DNA of 64,000 nucleotides, from the NCBI RefSeq assembly GCF_030253575.1, contig NC_080557.1:47909501-47973500 (forward strand), written 5' to 3'. Position 1 is the first letter of the stretch. Every line of letters starts with the position of its first letter. Positions 10,121 through 34,856 of the stretch are shown here, piece by piece. The notes under the pieces are model-generated. The model searched no databases, was not told the origin of the DNA, and was given only the letters and a program-made list of their open reading frames with translations. The DNA is from Rhododendron vialii. Lineage: Eukaryota > Streptophyta > Magnoliopsida > Ericales > Ericaceae. The translations under genes and the position numbers were made by a program.

Positions 10121-10232
10121 CACACCAAAAATCTCAACTCCCGATCGATATATATATACAGCCTCTTCACAAACACATTCTCATTCTCGATCTCTCCCCT
10201 CATTCTTCTCTCTCACTATATATCTAGCATTC

Positions 10233-10550
10233 ATGGGCACGACCACGGTGGCGGATTTGGTGGCTCAAAGCAGGCCCCTGGTGATATTCAGCAAAACCAG
10301 TTGTTGCATGAGCGAGGCCATTAAGATACTCTTCTATGGTTTCGGTGCAAACCCTGCGATTTACGAGCTCGATGAGCTTCAAAACGGGCAGCAAATGGAG
10401 AGGGAACTCGTGGCGTTGGGGCGTCGGCCGAGCGTGCCGGCGGTGTTCATAGGTGGCAGACTGGTTGGTGGTTCGAATGAGGTCATGAGCCTCCAGGTCA
10501 AGGGGGAGCTTAAGAAAATGCTCTTGAAGCATGGAGTTATACGCCTCTAG
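10233..10550 (+). CDS. CC-type (class III, ROXY-like) glutaredoxin
   Basis: Single-exon gene for 105 residues. Land-plant-specific CC-type glutaredoxins use glutathione chemistry and commonly act by binding TGA transcription factors in the nucleus or cytosol. The sequence starts with beta-strand PLVIFSKTS and has the class-defining active site C24-C25-M26-S27. The glutathione-binding S67-V68-P69 (TVP position) and the G74-G75 and G79-G80 turns follow. The fold is complete for the family (about 100-110 aa). The C terminus ends KHGVIRL and lacks the ALWL motif that many ROXYs use for TOPLESS and TGA-related activity. The start is the first ATG after the predicted leader. The gene is the first of a local cluster with the copies at 13051 and 14403. 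It has no intron, as usual for the class. A same-length open frame on the opposite strand is a shadow. Confidence 0.93.
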   Translation: MGTTTVADLVAQSRPLVIFSKTSCCMSEAIKILFYGFGANPAIYELDELQNGQQMERELVALGRRPSVPAVFIGGRLVGGSNEVMSLQVKGELKKMLLKHGVIRL

Positions 10551-12660: not shown

Positions 12661-12970
12661 CGTCAGGGTCAATGCTGTCAATTTGAGAATATAGAACCCC
12701 GTACATGGTAATCACGTTTGCACATCCACGTATATATATGGAGTGGTACAGTAAACGTTTGAGAGAGACATATATAAGTTTGTAGATAATTTCGTACTAC
12801 TTTGGAATATTTTATCGGTTGCTTTTTCCATCAGTACCTTATCCAATCAAATGAAGCATCGTTAATAACCCATCGTCATTTTTTTTTTCCCCCCATTAAA
12901 TTATGGACTTATCCACCAGTACCTTAGTCGATCACCTCTCTATATATAACTTCTATCAGGCCTCAACTTC
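12661..12970 (+). promoter_or_regulatory. Promoter of the second glutaredoxin gene
   Basis: The shared glutaredoxin upstream block is at 12661-12720 (GTCAGGGTCAATGCTGTCAA, TTGAGAATATAGAA, CATGGTAATCAC). A TATA box (TATATATAA) lies near 12942, about 105 bp before the ATG. A short CT repeat (13003-13019) sits in the leader. Confidence 0.6.
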
Positions 12971-13050
12971 CTCACTGCAAAATCTCAACTCCCATCTTCA
13001 CTCTCTCTCTCTCTCTCTCACCAGTATTTACCCTTTTTCAACCGACGACA

Positions 13051-13362
13051 ATGGCGGTGATGGATTTGGTTGGTCAAAGGCCCCTGGTGATCTTCAGCAA
13101 AAGCAATTGTTGCATCTGCTACTCCGTTACGCAACTGTTCTACGGTTTCGGTGCAAATCCTGTGATTTACGAGCTTGACCAGCTTCAAAACGGGAAGCAA
13201 CTGGAGAGGGAGCTGGTGGCATTGGGGCGGCAGCCGAGTGTACCGGCCGTGTTCATAGGGGGTAAGTTGGTTGGTGGTTCAAATGAGATCATGAGCCTCC
13301 AAGTCAGGGGGGAGCTGAAGAGCGAACTCTTGAGGGCCAGGGCTATTCATCTCTGGAATTAA
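13051..13362 (+). CDS. CC-type (class III, ROXY-like) glutaredoxin
   Basis: Single-exon gene for 103 residues, a close paralogue of the gene at 10233. The active site is C20-C21-I22-C23, so unlike its neighbour (CCMS) it keeps a cysteine at the fourth position and could work as a dithiol enzyme. The glutathione-binding SVP and the two GG turns (FIGGKLVGGSN) are intact. The C terminus ends RARAIHLWN, closer to the ALWL-type end that in ROXY proteins supports interaction with transcriptional partners. The start is the ATG that aligns with the paralogues and sits directly after the leader CT repeat. The upstream region and leader are duplicated in the copy at 14403. Function is by family; the target is unknown. 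Confidence 0.93.
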   Translation: MAVMDLVGQRPLVIFSKSNCCICYSVTQLFYGFGANPVIYELDQLQNGKQLERELVALGRQPSVPAVFIGGKLVGGSNEIMSLQVRGELKSELLRARAIHLWN

Positions 13363-15753: not shown

Positions 15754-17638
15754 CTACTCTACTCTAGCCTCTAAGTTTGCATTCCTTCGCCAATTCTCTA
15801 CTGCTCTCTTAACGGTGGCATTTGCCTCACGCATCTCTTCAGAAGAGAACTTGTGCTCCACAATTCCCAAAGGTCCAGGCTGCAGTACGGCAATCACTGT
15901 TTCCATCTCCTGTTCTAGCTGCCTGTGAAACAAACAACAAAAGTTTTGCCAAAAGGAAAACATTTTATGCACTTATTACGAAAATCCATGCACAGAAATG
16001 AACTGATGTAACAAAGTCCAAGAAACCAAGGATCATATATCTGACCCTAGTCCCCAACCAACTAAAACTAAGGCAAGATATGCCGTGTTAAGATCAGATA
16101 TGGAATTTTCATAAAACGATGGCAAATCATGACTAACAAAAAAAGGTACCATTGTACAGATTCAGACTACAGGTAAGGATTCATATGTTAAGCTGATTCA
16201 AAGTACCCATCACTTGAGACCAAGTTATGATTATATATGAGTCAAGGTTCCTATAATGGGGACGCAAACAAGTGCAATTCAGGAAGGTAGAAGGCATGAT
16301 GTTAAGTCCCTAGAGAACACGGATGAGGAATTGGGATGGTCTCATTCAGGCCAAAAATTTGGAACTCGGAATGTTGTAGCTCCATATGTAAGAGGTGTTT
16401 GCTTCTTATGTCTCAAACTGTGGACCAAGAGTGCAGTAACATCATTTTCAAGATGAAAATAATTTAGTTTATTCACGAGCCTGTTTTACAGAAAGTAAAC
16501 ACATGGAGTACCCACAACACAGTAGTTCTACGCATGGCCCTTGCTTTGCAATCAAATAGAGAAGTTACATATTATGCCGGCAAATTGTCTTAACCAAGCT
16601 AAAAAGAACAGTGCAAGTTTATTCACGACTCCCCCTCCCCACAACCCGAAACGAACAGACTGGTGTGGACTTGTGGATGTTGATTTTAGGCTTATGACCA
16701 ATCTGTTATGAGATTGGCTTGATCTAAAAACACTCAGTACAGTTCAACATAGATCTTCCCTCTCTTCACATATGGGACCCTAATTCGGCCCCCCCTGTTA
16801 TTCCTGATCTCTTAATAGCGAAAAGCCAACTTAATTTGTTTAAGTAATTACCCAATCTCAAAGTATATACCAAGAAGAAATCAACAAATAGCAACATTTG
16901 TTATGTACTCTGCAGAAATATATATTCAAAGGTCGTAACAATCAAATTACATCAGCTGAGACTTGAAAGCATTTACATATGAGAGACCAAGGTGAACAAC
17001 TCCTTCAAGCTATACTTGAACATGGTCAAGAACTACAAGACGTACATTTACGCCATACCTATCCAAAATGTCATCAGAACTATGCAAGTACCTAACACAT
17101 AAAATTTCAAACACTTCAACGGGCAAAAGACATAAAAACATCAACCCAAAAAAAAATCTGATATTGGTATTACGGCTACACGGCACCCCCATGAAAACTA
17201 TTATTCTCAATACATAGTGGTCCGGGTGACAGTACGATGCGTAACGGAACAGCCAATTTGCGTTTGTTCCCAGATAGATTACATGAGAAAGGGTGATAAA
17301 TGGAGAGATTCTTCCCAACAGTATACAAATTCCAAGCCCCCTACTATGTCTATAACAACACCCAAAACAGAATAATATCTCCTCAGGCAGAGATCGTTTC
17401 CTAAGACTTACAAGAGCATATCAATAAACGAATTTTTCAAAGACTTATTATATGGGTAGAAGTGCATGATATATATGTTGATAATGCGAAACCCTCTTGA
17501 GAGAGAAAATTCAATCACAAACCCTAAGAGTGAATGAAAGGCAAACAAAAATGGTTTCGAAAGCGTGTATTAGGAGGACTACCTGAAGAGCCTGGAGAAG
17601 GGTAACGAATTGCCGAGCCGCGTAAAGGATACCGCCAT
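15754..17638 (-). CDS. Small conserved-looking protein, 74 aa, two exons
   Basis: Exons 17583-17638 and 15754-15922 join in phase 2 across a 1,660-bp GT..AG intron to give 74 residues. The splice restores one continuous frame: SRLFR, then QLEQEMETVIAVLQPGPLG. The first 22 residues have several arginines (7, 16, 19) and no acid before residue 21, which resembles a mitochondrial presequence; this is inference. The middle is a hydrophobic strand or helix with a P-G-P-L-G turn, and the end (EEMREANATVKRAVENWRRN) is a predicted charged amphipathic helix. I do not recognise the family. The clean splice and non-random composition make a real gene likely. Position 17639 upward is its likely promoter and leader. 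It lies between the glutaredoxin cluster and the 7SL RNA cluster. Confidence 0.72.
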
Positions 17639-18146
17639 TCCGCCGGGATGATTACTACTGTTTTCCGATTTGGGGAAGCCCCGTTAATATAATGGACAGT
17701 TTGGCTTTGGAAGGAACAGAAATAACCCCTGAAAGACTTATTTGCAAATAAGTATTTATTTTTTGAATTAAAGATAATATATTGTAGAAAAATAATTTGT
17801 TTCGTAAAATAAAAAATAAACACTTAAAAAAATAAAAACTTTAATAGAACAGGGTCTAACAGCAATTACCTCAGTTGGTATCAAAGTAATATCATTAAAT
17901 TTATCTTTTATTTGTCAGTGTTAAAAGGTCAAAAAATATATATATGTAAATGTCATTGCATTAAATTATTCAAAGCCTGTGGAGCATCGACACGTGATGC
18001 TCCAAAAAAAAAAATTCAATTCATATTTGTGTGATTCCCACCACAAAATGTGTAGAGTTGACACAAATATGGTGCCCTAGGTGCACTTGATAATTTTTCG
18101 CAATATTGGTACAATTATTGTTATTTTTCTTTGAAGGATGAGAGAG
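17639..18146. other. Upstream flank of the small gene
   Basis: AT-rich sequence with no TATA box that I can place confidently. No separate gene is supported. Confidence 0.4.
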
Positions 18147-18561
18147 GATGACTTTTTCGTACATTTTTATTTTTTTGATCGGCGAAAGTTAGTCGGGTTA
18201 GAATAACGCATTCCAATCAACAAAAAGAACAACACGTTGCAAGAGGAGTTGAACTAATATTCTCCTTTCTCTTAGCATCTAAGTGTGCACTTGATGTCGT
18301 TAGGCCAAATTTAACAACTTTGGAGTTTTTTTTTTTTAAGAAAATTTTCCTTAAGTCACGATAAACCTACAAATAAAGAAAAGCAGGAAACCAAACACAT
18401 ATTTTTGCTAAACAAATCCAGTTTGCAAAGATAGAGAGGAAGCAAAGCTGGAAAGTATTGCTCTTTCTTCTTCCCTTCCCCGGAATCCCCACGTTCCTGC
18501 TACATACAGAGGAGGAAAAGACGGATTCAAGTCTAAATTGTGATTGTTGAAAAGGAAATTG

Positions 18562-19014
18562 AAGAAAAAGGTTGTCGTCGGGGGAGAGAGGTGGGTTTTT
18601 ACAGTGAGAATTCCCTACGGGTACCGGCTCAATCCATCCTTCTAATCCCATTTAAACTGGGAGGCAGATAGCTGCTCTGTCAAGCCAGCCAACAACATCC
18701 ATCATCATCCCACCCCGCCTCTACAAGCAGGAGGAGGAGAAGATAGGCATCCATCAACTGCCCACCCCGCCCCATCAAGCGGAGGAGGAGAAGATAGGGA
18801 TAACCACCAGCAGCTCCAACTCACGGACGCACCTTCTTAGCCAAGCCTGCTGGCCCCTGCCTCGCCTCAGCAATGGAACGCACCCAGACACGGTGAGCCT
18901 GTAGCGCCCGACTCACGCAGGGTTAACCACTGTTTGGTTACACCCTCTTGGTTCCCCTTCGACAACCTTGTTGCCCCAAAGCTATGGTCACAGGCTCACG
19001 CTACCGAGCCCGGC
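18562..19014 (-). ncRNA. 7SL (SRP) RNA copy 1, rearranged, probably pseudogene
   Basis: The - strand begins GCCGGGCTCGGTAGCGTGAG followed by CCTGTGACC, the 5' Alu-domain signature of SRP RNA. A perfect plant USE (ATCCCACATCG) lies at 19070-19080, with a weak TATA-position sequence (CATATCCC) about 28 nt below it. The S domain keeps ACAGAGCAGC of helix 8, but the opposing strand has diverged. A stretch of about 50 bp is tandemly duplicated (TATCTTCTCCTCCTCC occurs twice, near 18740 and 18795). The length of about 450 nt exceeds the ~300 nt expected. The 3' end is placed at the TTTTT near 18562-18566. Confidence 0.65.
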
Positions 19015-19429
19015 ATTATGTTTGTGTTGAACTGTGGGATATGAAAGGAGCAGATGTTTTGTCAATAGCCGATGTGGGATAACTGGAAATGGGCTCTTCC
19101 TTGGTGTGCTCGCTATCGGTATGATCTAGTTCCAGCCGTCATGGGCCCGTTTTGAACTCATTTTGATGATCGGAACTATTCAACTCACAGGCTTGCGTTG
19201 AAGATCATTTATGTAAGGCAGCAGAGCGAATAGATATTCTATACATAGAATATCGAAACATCATTATTTAAGAAGTAACTAGCGGTTTAAATATTGAATT
19301 ATATTTGGCATTCTGTTTCTATTTCAAGATGCTACCGATGTCCGATTTTGCACTTACTTGATCTTCACTATCCTTACTAAGTGAACAATTTCGATCATTG
19401 AATTGGTCTCAAAAAGGGCCACAATGACC

Positions 19430-19713
19430 CAGGGCCAGCCCAAGGTATTTGGATGCCCTAGGCTAAGTGGTGGAATAGTGCCCTACTACATAGAAGGAAT
19501 TTTTTTTTGCAAAAAAATACCCTACCAGGATTTGAACCCAAACATCTTATGTGGAAAAGCAAACACTCTACCACTGAACCACCAAAGAAGTTTGTATTAT
19601 AGTTGTACACAGAAAATATATATACTTATCTAGAAATGAGTGCCCCATTTTTTGCCCAAAATGTAAAGGCCCAAGGCGGCGGCCTCTTGGGCCTCACCAT
19701 TGAGCCGGCCCTG
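19430..19713 (-). mobile_element. Small hAT element carrying a tRNA-like body
   Basis: The termini CAGGGCCAGCCC and GGGCCGGCCCTG are inverted repeats flanked by a perfect 8-bp target duplication CAATGACC (19422-19429 and 19714-19721). The duplicated locus at 21695-21702 has a single near-identical copy of this octamer with no element, a true empty site. Together these define a 284-bp non-autonomous hAT transposon. Internally, on the - strand, GGTGGTTCAGTGGTAGAGTG and GGTTCAAATCC form a tRNA-like A box and B box about 40 bp apart, with a possible anticodon loop TTTTCCACA between them. The tRNA-like part occupies about 19520-19590. Confidence 0.92.
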
Positions 19714-20145
19714 CAATGACCAAATTGGATCGTAGCACACCAAGGACGAGCCATCCCCAAGAGTTGAACTAAGTTTAAATTCAAAATAGACCTGTTTTCC
19801 AATTCATATTGATTGTCGTGTACAAATTGGTAGTGGGAATTGCAGATGTGTCTGTGCTTCGTGGGTTCAGCTTTCAAGTTTCATAATTCAGCTCGGAAAA
19901 CATCTCCACCAACACATTTCTCAAAGAGTTTGTTCTAGGTTTTTTTCTTCTCTTCAATGGAGATTTTATGTTCTTTTGCTCCCTTTTTTGTTTTATCAAT
20001 AATACAGTGCGTTGCGAAAACCTTTAGAATGTTTGATCATTCCAGTATTATCAATAACTACCATTGCCCATTCGGAGATTTTGTTTTCTTCGTATTTTCA
20101 GCTTTTCAATTTTCTTGGTGAAATTGAGAGAGCGAGAAGTTAACT

Positions 20146-20335
20146 GTTCCTACATCGGACAAATTAAAACTATTTAAGTTGTTTACAAAGCGTGAATGTA
20201 ACTACCTACTATTGCCCAGGCTTGATGGTGCGAGCCCGTAACCCGAGCCACAGACTCTTCCACACCGTCGGGGGCACAGACGGGACGAATGTGTTGCGTG
20301 AAGCTAAGGCCCAACTCAAACCACAAAAGTTGAAT
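20146..20335 (+). ncRNA. 7SL-like fragment with USE-like promoter (unit A)
   Basis: From about 20213 the + strand reads GCCCAGGCTTGATGGTGCGA then GCCCGTAACC. It aligns with the 7SL Alu-domain start of the - strand copies over about 25 nt, with differences that are all transitions. Upstream, TTCCTACATCG (20147-20157) is a one- to two-base variant of the plant USE, placed about 55 nt before the start as in the intact copy. Only about 120 nt of RNA-like sequence remains and the S domain is not visible. Likely a truncated 7SL pseudogene. Confidence 0.42.
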
Positions 20336-20852
20336 GGATATTCTGTACGTAGATCATCGAAACATAATTATTTCAGAAGTAACTAGCGATTTAAGTATTG
20401 AATTATATTTAGCATTCTTTTTGTATTTCGTGATGCTATCGATGTCCATTTTTGCACTTACTTCTTAGCTTTTTCAAATGGACTTTTCTGTACATTTTTA
20501 TTTTTGATAGGCGAAAGTTAGTAACACCTTCCAATTGAAAAATAAAAAACTCAACACTTTGCAAGAGGAGTTAAACCCATGATCTCCTTTCTACTGGCAT
20601 CTAAGTGTACGCCAAATGTCACTAGGCCAGATTTGACGAATTTGGGGTATTTTTTATTTTCCAACGACAAACCTACAAATAAAGAAAAGAAGGGAACAGA
20701 ACACATTTCTTTGCTAAACAAAGCCGGGTTGCAAATAAAGAGAGGTAGCAAACTAATTCTCTTTCTTCCCTTCTACACAATCCCAAATCAAAGTACTACA
20801 GTGGAGGAAAAGATTCATTTCTAATTGTGACTGTTTAAAAGAAAACTGAAGA

Positions 20853-21286
20853 AAAAGGATGTCGTTGGGGGAGAGAAGTGGGTTTTTACAGTGGGAATCC
20901 CTACGGGTACCGGCTCAATCCATCCTTCTTATCCCATCTAAACAGGGAGGCAGAATAGCTGGCTGCTCTGTCAAGCCAGCCAACAACATCCATCATCAAC
21001 CCCACCCCGCCCCAAGGAGCGGAATAGGAGAGTTTGGGTTTATCCCAAACGACCAGTGGAACTTCAGGCCCACTGATCAAACCAGCAGTTCCGACAAACA
21101 GACGCACTTCATAGCCAAGCCCGCTGGCCCCCCACCTCCCTCGGCAATGGAACGCATCCAGACATGGTGAGCCTGTAGCGTCCGACTTGCGCAGGTTTAA
21201 CCACTGTTGGGTCCCAATCTCTTGGGTCTCTCCGACAACCTTATTGCCCCAAGCTTTGGTCACAGGCTCGCGCTACCGAGCCCGGC
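20853..21286 (-). ncRNA. 7SL (SRP) RNA copy 2, divergent
   Basis: The - strand starts GCCGGGCTCGGTAGCGCGAG then CCTGTGACC. A perfect USE (ATCCCACATCG) is at 21343-21353, but the TATA position reads CATATCCC as in copy 1. The S domain keeps CTTGACAGAGCAGCC but lacks the GAAACCGCGTCAGG strand of helix 8 seen in the copy at 23533-23835. The body is about 430 nt, too long for a standard 7SL RNA. It ends near a TTTTT at 20853-20857. It is a tandem duplicate of copy 1 without that copy's internal repeat. Probably not a functional SRP RNA, though the promoter USE is intact. Confidence 0.65.
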
Positions 21287-21694
21287 AGTACGTTTTGTGT
21301 TGGACTGTGGGATATGAAAGGAGCAGATGTTTTGTCAATAGCCGATGTGGGATAATTGGGAATGGGCTCTTCCTTGGTGTGCTCGCTATCGGTATGTTCT
21401 AGTTCTAGCTATCATGGGCCCGTTTTGAACTCATTTTGATGATCGAAACTATTCAACTCACAAGCTTGCATTGAAGATCATTTATGCAAGACAACAGAGC
21501 GAATAGATATTATGTACATGGAACATCGAAACATCATTATTTTAGAAGTAACTAGCGGTTTAAGTATTGAATTATATTTAGCATTCTGTTTCTATTTCGC
21601 GATGCTAACGATGTCCGATTTTGCACTTACTTGATCTTCACTATCCTTACTAAGTGAACAGTTTCGATCATTGAATTGGTCTCGAAAAGGGCCA

Positions 21695-21702
21695 CAATGA
21701 GC
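21695..21702. other. Empty (pre-insertion) site of the hAT element
   Basis: CAATGAGC at the position equivalent to the duplicated octamer CAATGACC around the hAT element at 19430. Flanks on both sides (GGGCCA on the left; TTGGATCGTAGCACACCAAG on the right) match the occupied locus. This shows that the element inserted after the tandem duplication, or was lost precisely here. Confidence 0.85.
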
Positions 21703-22131
21703 AGATTGGATCGTAGCACACCAAGGACGAGCCCATCCCCAAGAATTGAACTAAGTTTAAATTCAAAATATACCTGTTTTCCAATTCATATTGATTGTCG
21801 TGTACAAATTGGTAGTGGGAATTGCAGATGTGTCTGTGCTTCGTGGGTTCAGCTTTCAAGTTTCATAATTCAGCTCGGAAAACATCTCCACCAACACATT
21901 TCTCAAAGAGTTTGTTCTAGGTTTTTTTCTTCTCTTTGATGGAGATTTATATTATTTTGCTCCCTTTTTTGTTTTATCAATAATATAATACAGTGCGTTG
22001 CGAAAACTTGTAGAATGTTTGATCATTCCAGTATTATCAATAACTAGCATTGCCCATTCGGAGATTTTGTTTTCTTCGTATTTTCAGCTTTCATTTTTCT
22101 TTGTAAAATGGAGAGAGAGAGAAGTTAATTG

Positions 22132-22316
22132 TTCCCACATCGGACAAATTAAAACTATTTAAGTTGTTTACAAAGCGTGAACATAACAACCTACTATTGT
22201 CCAGGCTTGGTGGTGCTAGCCCGTAACCCGAACCACAAACTCTTCCACACCGTTGGGGGCACAGACGGGGCAAATGTGTTGCTTGAAGCTAAGGCCCGAC
22301 TCAAACCACAAAAGGT
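22132..22316 (+). ncRNA. 7SL-like fragment with USE-like promoter (unit B)
   Basis: Paralogue of the fragment at 20146. The USE-like element is TTCCCACATCG (22135-22145), a one-base variant of the consensus. The RNA-like part starts near 22199 (CCAGGCTTGGTGGTGCTAGC then CCGTAACCC). The similarity to unit A stops near 22316, after CAAACCACAAAAG. No S domain follows. Divergently oriented relative to copy 2. Confidence 0.42.
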
Positions 22317-23530
22317 CACGCAAGCCCGAGCGGGTTCTCGGTTGGCTGCCTATGAAAAGCCTTATCAATGAGATTTTATAGCCCATTATGCTAGGGAACC
22401 CACGTGACCTCGTACATAAATTCCAATAATTGAGTCCTTGAGAGGCCTGCTTCTGCAATTCATTCGGGCCCGATGGCCGGTCGGTGTCCGGCCCAATTTT
22501 TTCCTCCGGCCCACCCTTTCCTGTCTTTTTTCTTTCTTTACTTTGGGTTGATATTTTCTTATTAGTAAATTGTCCGTGCATACGGCATTACCCACCCTAT
22601 GGAGAGGAATTACATTTTCAATCTTGTACGGTGGATCTCTGGTGTAGAACACATGAAAGCTCAATTCCATAATCAGTTGTCAGTTGGACCGGATGAAACC
22701 TCGGAAGCCCAAACGATGTTTAATTTCACATTATCCTATTTGACAAAATTTGAACAAGCTCGGAATAGGCCCAAAGCTAACTTATTTTTGCTCTCCGATC
22801 AATACTTACCACCCTAAGGTCATGATGCATGGTGGATTTCGGCCTGATTCATTCGTTTAGCCATTCAATTTGATATTTTTGCCGTTTTAGAAAACTTTTA
22901 ATTCGTTAATAACTTTTGCACCGTAATTCCTTATTAGTTGATTCTTTTAAGGAAAGTTCTATTTTTCTTTCCCATTTTCAATTTTAGGAGTTTCCCCAAA
23001 TTATGGGACTTTATTTTCTTGGCTGTTAATTATTAGGATTTCGGGGTTACACCATGTAAAAAGTGTTGTAACCTAATGCTTTGATGCAACTTTTTCATCA
23101 ATAAAATTTTTCTTCTAGATTTAAGAACTGCTCGTTGCTACAAGTACCTATCTCGTTTGAATTAGTATGTTAACTAGTCTTTCGTAAATTCCCCTACGTC
23201 AAGCTCAACCCATGGTATAAGCCTACTAGCGTTTGTGTAATAAACTAGGAAAGTATAGACACTTTCTTAAGAGTAGTTCTTAAGAGTAGGATTGAAGAGA
23301 TCTCAATCATTGTTCTAATGGAATTAATTTGAGTCATTCCAACAACTTATGTAGGGGTCCACACCTAAAGTAAACATGATCTGAACACCTGAGTAATAAA
23401 GAAAAATCATCAATAACAAAATTTAATAAAGGCAGATTTTCCCTTTGGTTTTGACGAGGGAGGACAGAATGAATATTTAATATACAAAGCAGTGGGCCTA
23501 AAAAGGAAGTTTAAGGAAGACTAAAAAACA
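22317..23530. other. Spacer within the 7SL cluster
   Basis: No coding gene is supported; the overlapping short open frames at 22380-22820 show no family signature. The sequence from 22900 to 23500 is AT-rich. Nothing else is seen. Confidence 0.45.
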
Positions 23531-23532
23531 AA

Positions 23533-23835
23533 AAAGTGGTTGTTGAATTGAGAGCGGCCCATGAGGCATCAGTGGCCCTGAGAAGTACCGGCCCGTTATC
23601 CTTCCACCGACTGGAGCGGGAGGTGGACGCTGCTCTGTGAAACCAGCCTGACGCGGTTTCCCCCACTCTAAGGGCCAAGAACCCAGTGCCTTCGCACCGA
23701 GCCCGTGGCCCAACTCCAGACTTGGAATGGGCAGGCCAGATGATAACCCCGCAGGGCCTACCTCCTGGGCCAAACCAATCTCCAACCACAATGATGCCCT
23801 CACTTGAGTCACAGGCTCACGTTACCAAGCCCGGC
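23533..23835 (-). ncRNA. 7SL RNA, the RNA of the signal recognition particle
   Basis: The best-preserved 7SL copy, about 303 nt, the length expected for plants. The RNA scaffolds SRP, which pauses translation and targets secretory ribosomes to the ER. The 5' end GCCGGGCTTGGTAACGTGAG then CCTGTGAC forms the Alu-domain loops that bind SRP9/14-type proteins. The S domain contains the helix 8 pair GGGGAAACCGCGTCAGG and GGTTTCACAGAGCAGC (complement of 23629-23664), the SRP54-binding core conserved with human 7SL. The 3' end runs into T6 (23530-23535), an RNA polymerase III terminator. The upstream USE and TATA are canonical. It is the only copy of the cluster with all these parts. Whether it is expressed cannot be seen. 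Confidence 0.88.
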
Positions 23836-23858
23836 GATAAGACTATTATCGGCTGAAG

Positions 23859-23901
23859 CTTATATTAAGACAAAAAGTTTCTTTGCTAGCCGATGTGGGA
23901 T
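23859..23901 (-). promoter_or_regulatory. Plant USE + TATA promoter of the 7SL gene
   Basis: USE ATCCCACATCG (23891-23901, perfect match to RTCCCACATCG) and TATA box TATAAG (23859-23864), 26 nt apart. The TATA lies about 29 nt before the 7SL start. In plants a USE-TATA distance near 24-26 bp directs RNA polymerase III, whereas about 34 bp directs polymerase II, so this is a polymerase III promoter. Confidence 0.85.
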
Positions 23902-25158
23902 GGGAAGCCTGGATTCTAATGGTTCATTAAAAGGGTAGCTCTCGCTTTCGTATCACAACGAGATTGGTTTCTGGGGATTGAATGAGAAGGTATACACATA
24001 TATATCTTCGATTTGGGTTCTGATAATTGAGAATAAAAATGTTCGATTTTCAATGGTAGGGAAATGCAAAAGCACAGAATAAATTGGGTTGAAGGAAAAA
24101 CTTGCTTTCCAAATGCTTGCGGCGAGCCTTTCACCTGAATTTGTATGTTGCTGCTGCAGTCTGGAATGGTAGCCATGGTATGCTACCGGCCAGGGATAAC
24201 TAATGCAATTATTCCCATACCAGTAATGCTTCAAATGTCCGCTTAGTTTCTATCGGATGTGTGTATACCTGCAAATATATGCGCAAATTAAAACTACTCG
24301 GACAAGCCACGTACAAGTTTGCAGGAGGAGGAAGAGGCCGAGCTGAGTTTTATGATATTGTTCGAGCTCGGCTCATTTAAAATACAGTGGGATCGAGCTT
24401 GAATATTCGCACTCGATTCCACTACTAAACAAGACTCTACAAATAACCCAAGCCCAAACATGCGAGTCGAACTTATCTATGCGAGCCAAGCTATGGCTAA
24501 CTCAAGCTCGGCTTGTTTACTAACCAAGCAAACAAAATTGTTCTACCTCAGCTCGTTTACTAAATGAAGAGAGCTGAGCCTAAGTTTGTTGCAAATAGTT
24601 TGGCTCATTTTGTAACCCTACTCACGGGCCTTGAATCCAGATGCTTAATTTCAGTTGAGCTTCTGTTATCTTTGTCAAATTGTTGAAGATCTTCCGAGGG
24701 GGTTAGTTTGTACAGTGACAATTGTAATATCAATTCACAACAGAGTTGTTCAAACCCAGTCTCTTCCCTAGTAAAAACTAAAGAACACATTTTTTGGATG
24801 GAATATTTATGAAAGAAGAACGTATTGGGACATGTTGGGGACACACTTGCATTTTTCTAATCACCAATTTAACACTTTGATGGGTGTTTTGTAGTAGAAT
24901 CATGTATCATATGTCATACAAATTACTAGCAATAGTCACCGAGTCAGGTAATCTTACGCTCATAGCAATGGTACAAGCAAACTTTAAAAAAAAAGAAGAA
25001 GAAGAAAAGAAGCCATCTAAGAACTCAAAAGTGCGAAATTGAAGCCTATTAAGTATAATTCGATCTTTTTTTCATCTTCTTTGCATGAGAAGATATGATT
25101 CAGAAACACTTTTTTTATTATTATTTAGGTATGTGAGTATTGCCTTGTATATCAAACT

Positions 25159-26378: not shown

Positions 26379-34856
<8,478 letters not shown>

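Follow-up and report, generated by a model that had tools for sequence, protein, structure and literature searches.

The window analysed here, a 64-kb stretch of DNA (C1:47909501-47973500 of a genome of 532.6 Mb in 13 sequences), contains a canonical plant gene for 7SL RNA, the RNA of the signal recognition particle (SRP), together with two 7SL-like copies on the same strand that we call C1 and C2 (followed by a coordinate, or named as sequences, C1, C4 and the like denote parts of the genome). Judging by the 7SL type and its promoter, the window would appear to be plant nuclear DNA. When it was scanned with the Rfam families, RF01855 (Plant_SRP, gathering score 105 bits) was the only one to reach its cut-off, with a match at 23532-23835 on the minus strand (256.4 bits, E 3.5e-75) that spans the full model (1-305). 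This sequence folds into an Alu domain and a long rod (z -3.78) and is followed by a T6. The original prediction had placed a canonical 7SL gene at 23533-23835 and expected a covariance-model search to score it high and the other copies lower; both expectations were borne out (32.4 and 27.6 bits for C2 and C1), and its coordinates for the 7SL copies proved correct. The features on the minus strand are as follows, USE standing for the upstream sequence element of the promoter.

23532..23835, minus strand: canonical plant 7SL/SRP RNA gene (RF01855, fold, T6)
23891..23901, minus strand: USE of the canonical gene, ATCCCACATCG, starting 66 nt upstream of 23835
23859-23864, minus strand: TATAAG of the canonical gene at -29 (promoter scan)
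20852..21286, minus strand: non-canonical 7SL-like gene C2, start to T5 (RF01855 5' and helix-8 matches)
21343..21353, minus strand: USE of C2, perfect, starting 67 nt upstream of 21286
20963..20981, minus strand: helix-8/SRP54 motif GGCTGGCTTGACAGAGCAG of C2 (exact motif match)
21070..21186, minus strand: part of the C2 interior that recurs in a dispersed repeat listed at 11 further loci (DNA search and alignment; C1 counterpart about 18805-18910)
18565..19014, minus strand: non-canonical 7SL-like gene C1, start to T5 (RF01855 5' and helix-8 matches)
19070..19080, minus strand: USE of C1, perfect, starting 66 nt upstream of 19014
18672..18690, minus strand: helix-8/SRP54 motif of C1 (exact motif match)

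Both C1 and C2 fail the family cut-off. RF01855 matches their 5' parts, at 21236-21286 in C2 (32.4 bits) and 18918-19014 in C1 (27.6 bits), and separately an 18-nt helix-8 piece in each (13.1 bits each), and between the two it gives no match that would represent helix 6 or a full S domain. The Alu domain fold with UGUNAC is present in both copies (UGUGAC at +23), in minimum-energy folds as well as in the alignment pairs, the presumed SRP54-binding motif of helix 8 is conserved to the letter, and a T5 lies at +446..+450 in C1 and +431..+435 in C2. Folded up to the T run, C1 forms the Alu domain and a 10-bp closing stem (18960-18969 with 18568-18577), and C2 likewise forms an Alu domain and a closing stem, its 3' end pairing with the 5' region. 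Among the Rfam families searched over 17500-24600 with E up to 10, none but RF01855 overlaps C1 or C2, and three unrelated families in this stretch remained far under their cut-offs.

A perfect plant USE at all three minus-strand copies had been predicted and was confirmed, 66-67 nt upstream of the starts at 23835, 21286 and 19014. The accompanying claim that 23533-23835 alone is intact holds for the full S domain and helix 6, which are unrecognised in C1 and C2, but not for the Alu domain, the helix-8 motif and an oligo(T) end, which these copies also have. TATA is indeed degenerate in C1 and C2, but the canonical genes L036 and L037 elsewhere in the genome are also without TATA.

The interior of C1 and C2 has 65-113 nt (by BLAST) in common with a dispersed repeat at 11 other loci, where neither a 7SL start nor helix 8 is visible in the aligned copies. 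This repeat family (L015-L021, L023, L026-L028) comprises blocks of up to >1 kb that are about 70-99% alike, part of which lies inside C1 and C2, and most of its copies end alike near TTTTATAATAGAGA.

Non-canonical 7SL copies in several genomic clusters

Over the whole genome, RF01855 gave at least 23 matches (27 of 2521 candidates scored, a lower bound), namely 6 full genes and 17 sub-threshold matches. C1, C2, L025 and eight copies on sequence C4 stand outside this list and were found via the window, a DNA search with C2 and a helix-8 pattern; the family inventory is not exhaustive. The family members within the list score 28-50 bits against the cut-off of 105, and the non-canonical copies form the following clusters.

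18565-21286 of the window, minus strand: pair C1 and C2 (RF01855 and DNA search)
C1:44.66 Mb: pair L025 and L052 (genome searches)
C4:41.92-42.03 Mb, one strand: 17 helix-8-bearing copies, 13 with USE and 4 without
C5:27.13-27.15 Mb: Alu-only pair L041 and L044 (genome searches)

As such, the earlier description of the locus as 7SL birth and decay in one place was right about the single canonical copy, the 7SL identity and the duplication, but it was too narrow, since C1 and C2 match a family with several clusters. Decay is seen as well: some copies of the C4 array have lost the USE or the Alu domain, L039 (83.1 bits), beside canonical genes on sequence C6, has a body that is still 7SL-like and has lost helix 8, and L054 (34.8 bits) is degraded and also without helix 8. 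The neighbourhood of L039 and L054 (L009, C6:30.00-30.01 Mb, and L032) forms a second 7SL locus, where two full genes (240.3 and 217 bits) are accompanied by no fewer than three degenerate copies, the third being L003:309. A 7SL fragment with 77 nt at 92% identity to the window gene (21.6 bits) lies at L012:4588-4783 (C5:19.11 Mb), with no USE in the scan.

In plant type 3 genes of RNA polymerase III (Pol III), transcription is driven by USE and TATA, and the gene ends in oligo(T). In a promoter scan of 20 non-canonical copies (the 17 sub-threshold matches plus L025, C1 and C2), TCCCACAT was found at -63 to -66 in 16 copies, as it was in the 6 canonical genes; it was not found in L043, L050 and L053 (promoter missing), and in L054 it occurs with one mismatch. 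Near -30, 13 of these 16 also carry a TATA-like box, the exceptions being C1, C2 and L039, and by the same scan 2 of the 6 canonical genes (L036 and L037) have no TATA. For AtR8 and its homologues, the part of the report consulted likewise describes USE, TATA and terminator (PMC6765143). At C10:32.598 Mb (L030/L022), 157 nt of the promoter and upstream region of C2 recur at 82% identity with an intact USE and TTTATAT, followed by sequence that is not 7SL-like; this could be a promoter without its gene or the promoter of a different RNA.

Searched over the 532.6 Mb, the helix-8 pattern GGCTGGYTTNACAGAGCAG gave 47 matches in total, compared with 11 for a reversed control. All 17 exact matches fall in 4 canonical genes and 13 family members; the 10 matches with one mismatch comprise 2 canonical genes, 7 copies of the C4 array and one on sequence C7, and of the 20 with two mismatches 5 lie in the C4 array and 15 elsewhere. 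The C7 match (L057) was dropped, being protein-coding-like with no USE in the 701 bases around it. Helix 8 occurs twice in L042, L048 and L055 and three times in L049. By contrast to these parts, the interiors differ: a BLAST comparison with helix 8 masked (8 family members and 2 canonical genes, E 0.01; L046 not masked by the pattern) gave no match between clusters, nor between any cluster and canonical L033 or L034. Matches were limited to C1-C2, L042-L055, L046-L047 (22 nt) and L033-L034, and even L052 and L025, although members of the same cluster, had no mutual match at this threshold. The absence of interior matches between clusters makes the retained common parts stand out.

The Alu-domain alignment comprises 17 distinct rows from 18 of the 23 non-canonical copies in the clusters (L049, L051, L072, L073 and L078 left out). 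In this alignment, 88.2% of 238 cells are paired and 8 of 14 pairs show two-sided changes, and the covariation score of 0.473, compared with 0.017-0.157 in slid structures, was reached by none of 500 shuffles; with the canonical genes included it is 0.470 (22 rows, 21 distinct). Of 12 non-canonical folds, 11 show base pairing between the stretch 3' of the Alu domain and the last 75 nt. In a test of 11 of the 18 representatives prepared, the two ends of an RNA paired more stably with each other than with the ends of other representatives (mean -29.0 versus -17.4 kcal/mol; reached by 0 of 20000 permutations), and the same held for the 7 variants taken alone (-24.7 versus -16.3 kcal/mol, permutation p 0.001).

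A genome search with the Alu-only type gave 14 matches, of which two are the source pair and the other 12 lie at 11 places, two on sequence C6 representing one copy. L050 and L053 start at the predicted +1, are without promoter and are bordered by perfect direct repeats of 13 and 16 nt. When 9 copies, with ends picked by eye, were tested for target-site duplications, 4 had repeats of 13-16 nt (those of L061, 16 nt, and L063, 14 nt, with one mismatch each), L064, a near-duplicate of L063, had a 12-nt repeat, and the remaining 4 showed no clear one; between flanks of different copies, 12 nt were reached in 2 of 70 comparisons (the L063/L064 pair set aside). These copies fit reverse transcription of a real transcript, and since some of them begin at the predicted start and have perfect target-site duplications, transcription is shown for at least the Alu-only type. 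They are processed retrocopies and not a short interspersed element (SINE), because there are about a dozen copies and the full-length ones have no promoter.

Tandem duplication, plus-strand repeat copies and neighbouring genes

The duplicated arrangement that had been proposed is a tandem duplication, inside which lie 7SL-like copies of both strands; its blocks are 77-97% identical with a spacing of 1.98-2.32 kb.

18219..20329, no strand assigned: duplication unit A, in direct repeats D1-D12 with 20541-22314
20541..22314, no strand assigned: duplication unit B, in direct repeats D1-D12 with unit A
20147..20329, plus strand: P1, dispersed-repeat copy; USE-like element at 20147 (2 mismatches), 7SL-like 5' start about 20213
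22132..22330, plus strand: P2, same dispersed repeat; USE-like element at 22132 (1 mismatch), 7SL-like start about 22199

The mismatches of P1 and P2 were counted against a consensus of the element. Although the predicted USE-like elements are present, P1 and P2 are not locally truncated 7SL genes but members of a dispersed repeat with 8 other genome matches, in 6 of which the USE position is covered. Across an alignment of 8 copies the USE-like element is retained, though its state differs from copy to copy; TTTACA or TTTAAA stands near -31, and a start resembling that of 7SL follows 67 nt 3' of the USE. Taken singly, P1 and P2 resemble 7SL no better than shuffles do, while the start of the 8-copy consensus beats shuffles against L033, L052, L041 and C1 (p 0.0005, 0.0005, 0.001 and 0.0125) and does not against L034 and L036 (4 of 6 references significant). 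On these data we regard the P copies as belonging to a dispersed repeat which probably acquired a 7SL promoter and 5' end. They are not claimed as a structured RNA, the 114-nt P2 fold being worse than shuffles (z 2.57). Directly after P1, 20332-20463 is a third copy (132 nt, 87-89% identical) of the sequence that lies 5' of C1 and C2 (19228-19359 and 21501-21632).

Unit A contains a 284-bp insertion (19430-19713) that is not in unit B, with CAGGGCC(A/G)GC at both ends in inverted orientation and an 8-bp direct repeat, CAATGACC, flanking it on both sides. It looks like a non-autonomous element, presumably of the hAT type, that was inserted after the duplication. Elsewhere in the window there are two neighbouring glutaredoxin genes at 10209-10547 and 12928-13362 (PF00462, 41.9 and 43.8 bits) and an exon of an AAA ATPase gene at 32472-32978 (PF00004, 69.9 bits) that is perhaps PEX6-like; the open frames 27529-28209 and 28210-28641 gave no match in a Pfam search.

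Constraint, decay and mobility

On balance we incline to the view that, besides one canonical 7SL gene, the window carries a tandemly duplicated pair from a non-canonical family of 7SL-derived RNA genes forming partial SRP RNAs, a reading built on the parts, geometry, pairing, covariation, pooled constraint and copy numbers observed in this one genome. The constraint was assessed on pairs from within a cluster, with identity determined for a core (USE, Alu domain and helix 8), the interior and the flanks; these classes omit the rest of the promoter, from USE to start, and the 3' stem. The values below are given in the order core, interior, flanks.

C1-C2: 0.947, 0.854, 0.864
L052-L025: 0.928, 0.871, 0.886
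L041-L044 (no helix 8): 0.942, 0.839, 0.844
L046-L047: 0.850, 0.762, 0.811
L046-L042: 0.903, 0.751, 0.814

With four pairs pooled (all but L046-L042), identity is 91.2% in the core, 83.3% in the interior and 85.2% in the flanks, the core being higher than the interior (p 2e-4) and the flanks (p 8e-4). The promoter stretch from USE to start varies between 0.745 and 0.944 across the pairs. Together, this is moderate evidence that the non-canonical family is maintained.

Several observations weigh against this reading. Both comparisons reach 0.05 singly in just 2 of the 5 pairs, the upstream flank of C1 and C2 alone is 0.905 identical so that the excess of their core over it is small, and the 3' stem is not clearly better conserved (0.897 for C1-C2, 0.806 and 0.833 for the L046 pairs, unalignable for L052-L025). 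In the Alu alignment, as many two-sided pairs arose in 11 of 500 shuffles and as many pair types in 215 of 500, one of the 14 pairs (columns 14-19) is unpaired in 16 of 17 rows, and few independent lineages are represented. The minimum-energy folds of several members (e.g. L025, L052, L042 and L047) give alternative 5' folds and no Alu hairpins, L045 is the one of the 12 folds without closing stem, and folds minus the last ~30 nt, which omit the closing stem, gave z -3.15 for C2 and only -0.87 for C1. The end-pairing signal arises between clusters, whereas inside clusters foreign ends can pair better: C2 reaches -26.5 with the 3' end of C1 compared with -21.9 with its own, and L042, L047 and L025 behave similarly. 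Own-end pairing was also matched by 3.3%, 4.7%, 2.0% and 1.0% of shuffles in C2, L025, L042 and L052, respectively. Lastly, the 4 of 17 copies without USE in the C4 array count against the family, as does the CATATC that C1 and C2 have at the TATA position in place of a regular TATA box.

Alternatively, the copies could simply be 7SL pseudogenes from tandem or segmental duplication, with interiors lost by indels and remaining pieces that have not yet drifted, an explanation to which we assign a substantial, albeit minor, share of the probability. Such decay would suit the weak TATA of C1 and C2 and the repeat fragment in their interior, and in the C4 array it would suit the lost USEs, L072, in which most of the Alu domain is gone too, L073, which is deleted between Alu domain and helix 8, and L074 with a few extra bases 3' of the USE. 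Compensatory changes possibly date from ancestors that had not yet lost their function, and inside a cluster end pairing does not tell own from foreign ends. L039, next to canonical genes, is an instance of decay; however, it keeps the body and loses helix 8, which is the reverse of what the non-canonical family shows. The pooled excess of core identity over interior and flanks, moreover, is found in pairs that were already variant, and within the C4 array the closing stem shows a C-G/U-A exchange (L046 versus L042 and L047), yet L045, L048 and L051 have an A-C mismatch in that stem. It is also conceivable that a repeat captured a 7SL promoter with the 5' part and then spread it, so that the copies are products of a mobile element comparable to the P copies and the Alu-only retrocopies. 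The P type, with 10 matches in the genome (P1 and P2 among them) and the USE covered in 8, the 12 non-source matches of the Alu-only type at 11 places, some with target-site duplications, and the stretch that C1 and C2 have in common with 11 repeat loci all lend themselves to this idea, but we regard it as improbable, given that the copies in the window, at C1:44.66 Mb and on sequences C4 and C5 stand in local groups with upstream promoters of their own, and that the repeat in C1 and C2 spans the interior only, its other copies showing neither 7SL start nor helix 8.

A putative partial SRP RNA and known systems

If the family of partial SRP RNA genes is real, Pol III would be recruited by the USE (and TATA where present), would start at the 7SL start site and would terminate at the oligo(T); transcripts of the helix-8 types, which we infer, would measure some 240-530 nt. 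Least certain is the expression of the C1/C2 pair with its weak TATA. The 5' end of such an RNA would fold into the SRP Alu domain, clamped by a stem of both ends (the base of helix 5), and the RNA would carry one or more helix-8 hairpins, with unrelated sequence, in C1 and C2 partly a repeat fragment, in place of helix 6 and most of the S domain. Of the SRP proteins, SRP9/14 attaches to the Alu domain and SRP54 to helix 8, while SRP19 requires helix 6. The RNA could hence bind SRP9/14 and SRP54 but not SRP19, and the resulting partial SRP might compete with normal SRP or adjust it in elongation arrest or targeting.

Compared with plant SRP RNA as modelled by RF01855, the family has the USE about 66 nt upstream, the start sequence, the Alu domain, the closing stem, the helix-8 motif and the oligo(T) end in common and differs in having no recognised helix 6, variable interiors and sometimes 2-3 copies of helix 8. 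Primate BC200/Alu RNAs derive from the 7SL Alu domain and are thought to act through SRP9/14; they resemble the Alu-only type on sequence C5, which differs by its independent origin, its plant upstream promoter and the two source genes seen. Rodent 4.5SH RNA comes from tandem gene arrays and is not known to have a helix 8. As far as the consulted parts of two reports go (PMC10137851, PMC3440375), it is also a small Pol III RNA with a gene of 7SL origin, but it is about 100 nt long with internal boxes A and B, whereas in the plant family the visible promoters lie upstream and helix 8 is mostly kept. The non-canonical SRP RNAs of Basidiomycota, in the portion of the report consulted (PMC4605306), likewise evade standard searches and have an altered structure; there it is helix 8 that is altered, while the plant family keeps helix 8, has the rest changed and coexists with 6 canonical genes.

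For the retrocopies, the nearest parallel is SINE1, which according to the part of Kojima (2020; PMC7245038) consulted also represents retrocopies of 7SL-Alu RNA with target-site duplications and 5' truncation; the plant copies differ in number (about a dozen), in the visible upstream promoter and in the host. In the same part, well-defined 7SL-derived SINEs are reported from Euarchontoglires and hagfish only. Among the matches listed for the open-licence literature (titles and abstract starts), none described arrays of non-canonical 7SL genes, or SINEs derived from 7SL, in a plant. If true, the retrocopies would represent 7SL-derived retroposition that arose independently in a plant.

One could speculate further, though we hold this to be rather unlikely at present, that this plant lineage has evolved a second, parallel class of SRP RNA, i.e. 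Pol III genes in several clusters that keep only the modules binding SRP9/14 and SRP54, some with 2-3 helix-8 modules, whose partial SRPs regulate translation or targeting and whose Alu-only branch gave rise to a retroposon. Since C1, C2 and the members listed from sequences C1, C4 and C5 all remain below the Rfam cut-off, genes of this kind may have escaped annotation in other plants. The non-canonical copies, rather than being decayed junk, may constitute another type of SRP-like RNA. SRP RNA is usually treated as one RNA with one job; if the present reading is true, one could test whether several SRPs operate in a cell, and which parts of the SRP RNA serve arrest and which serve targeting.

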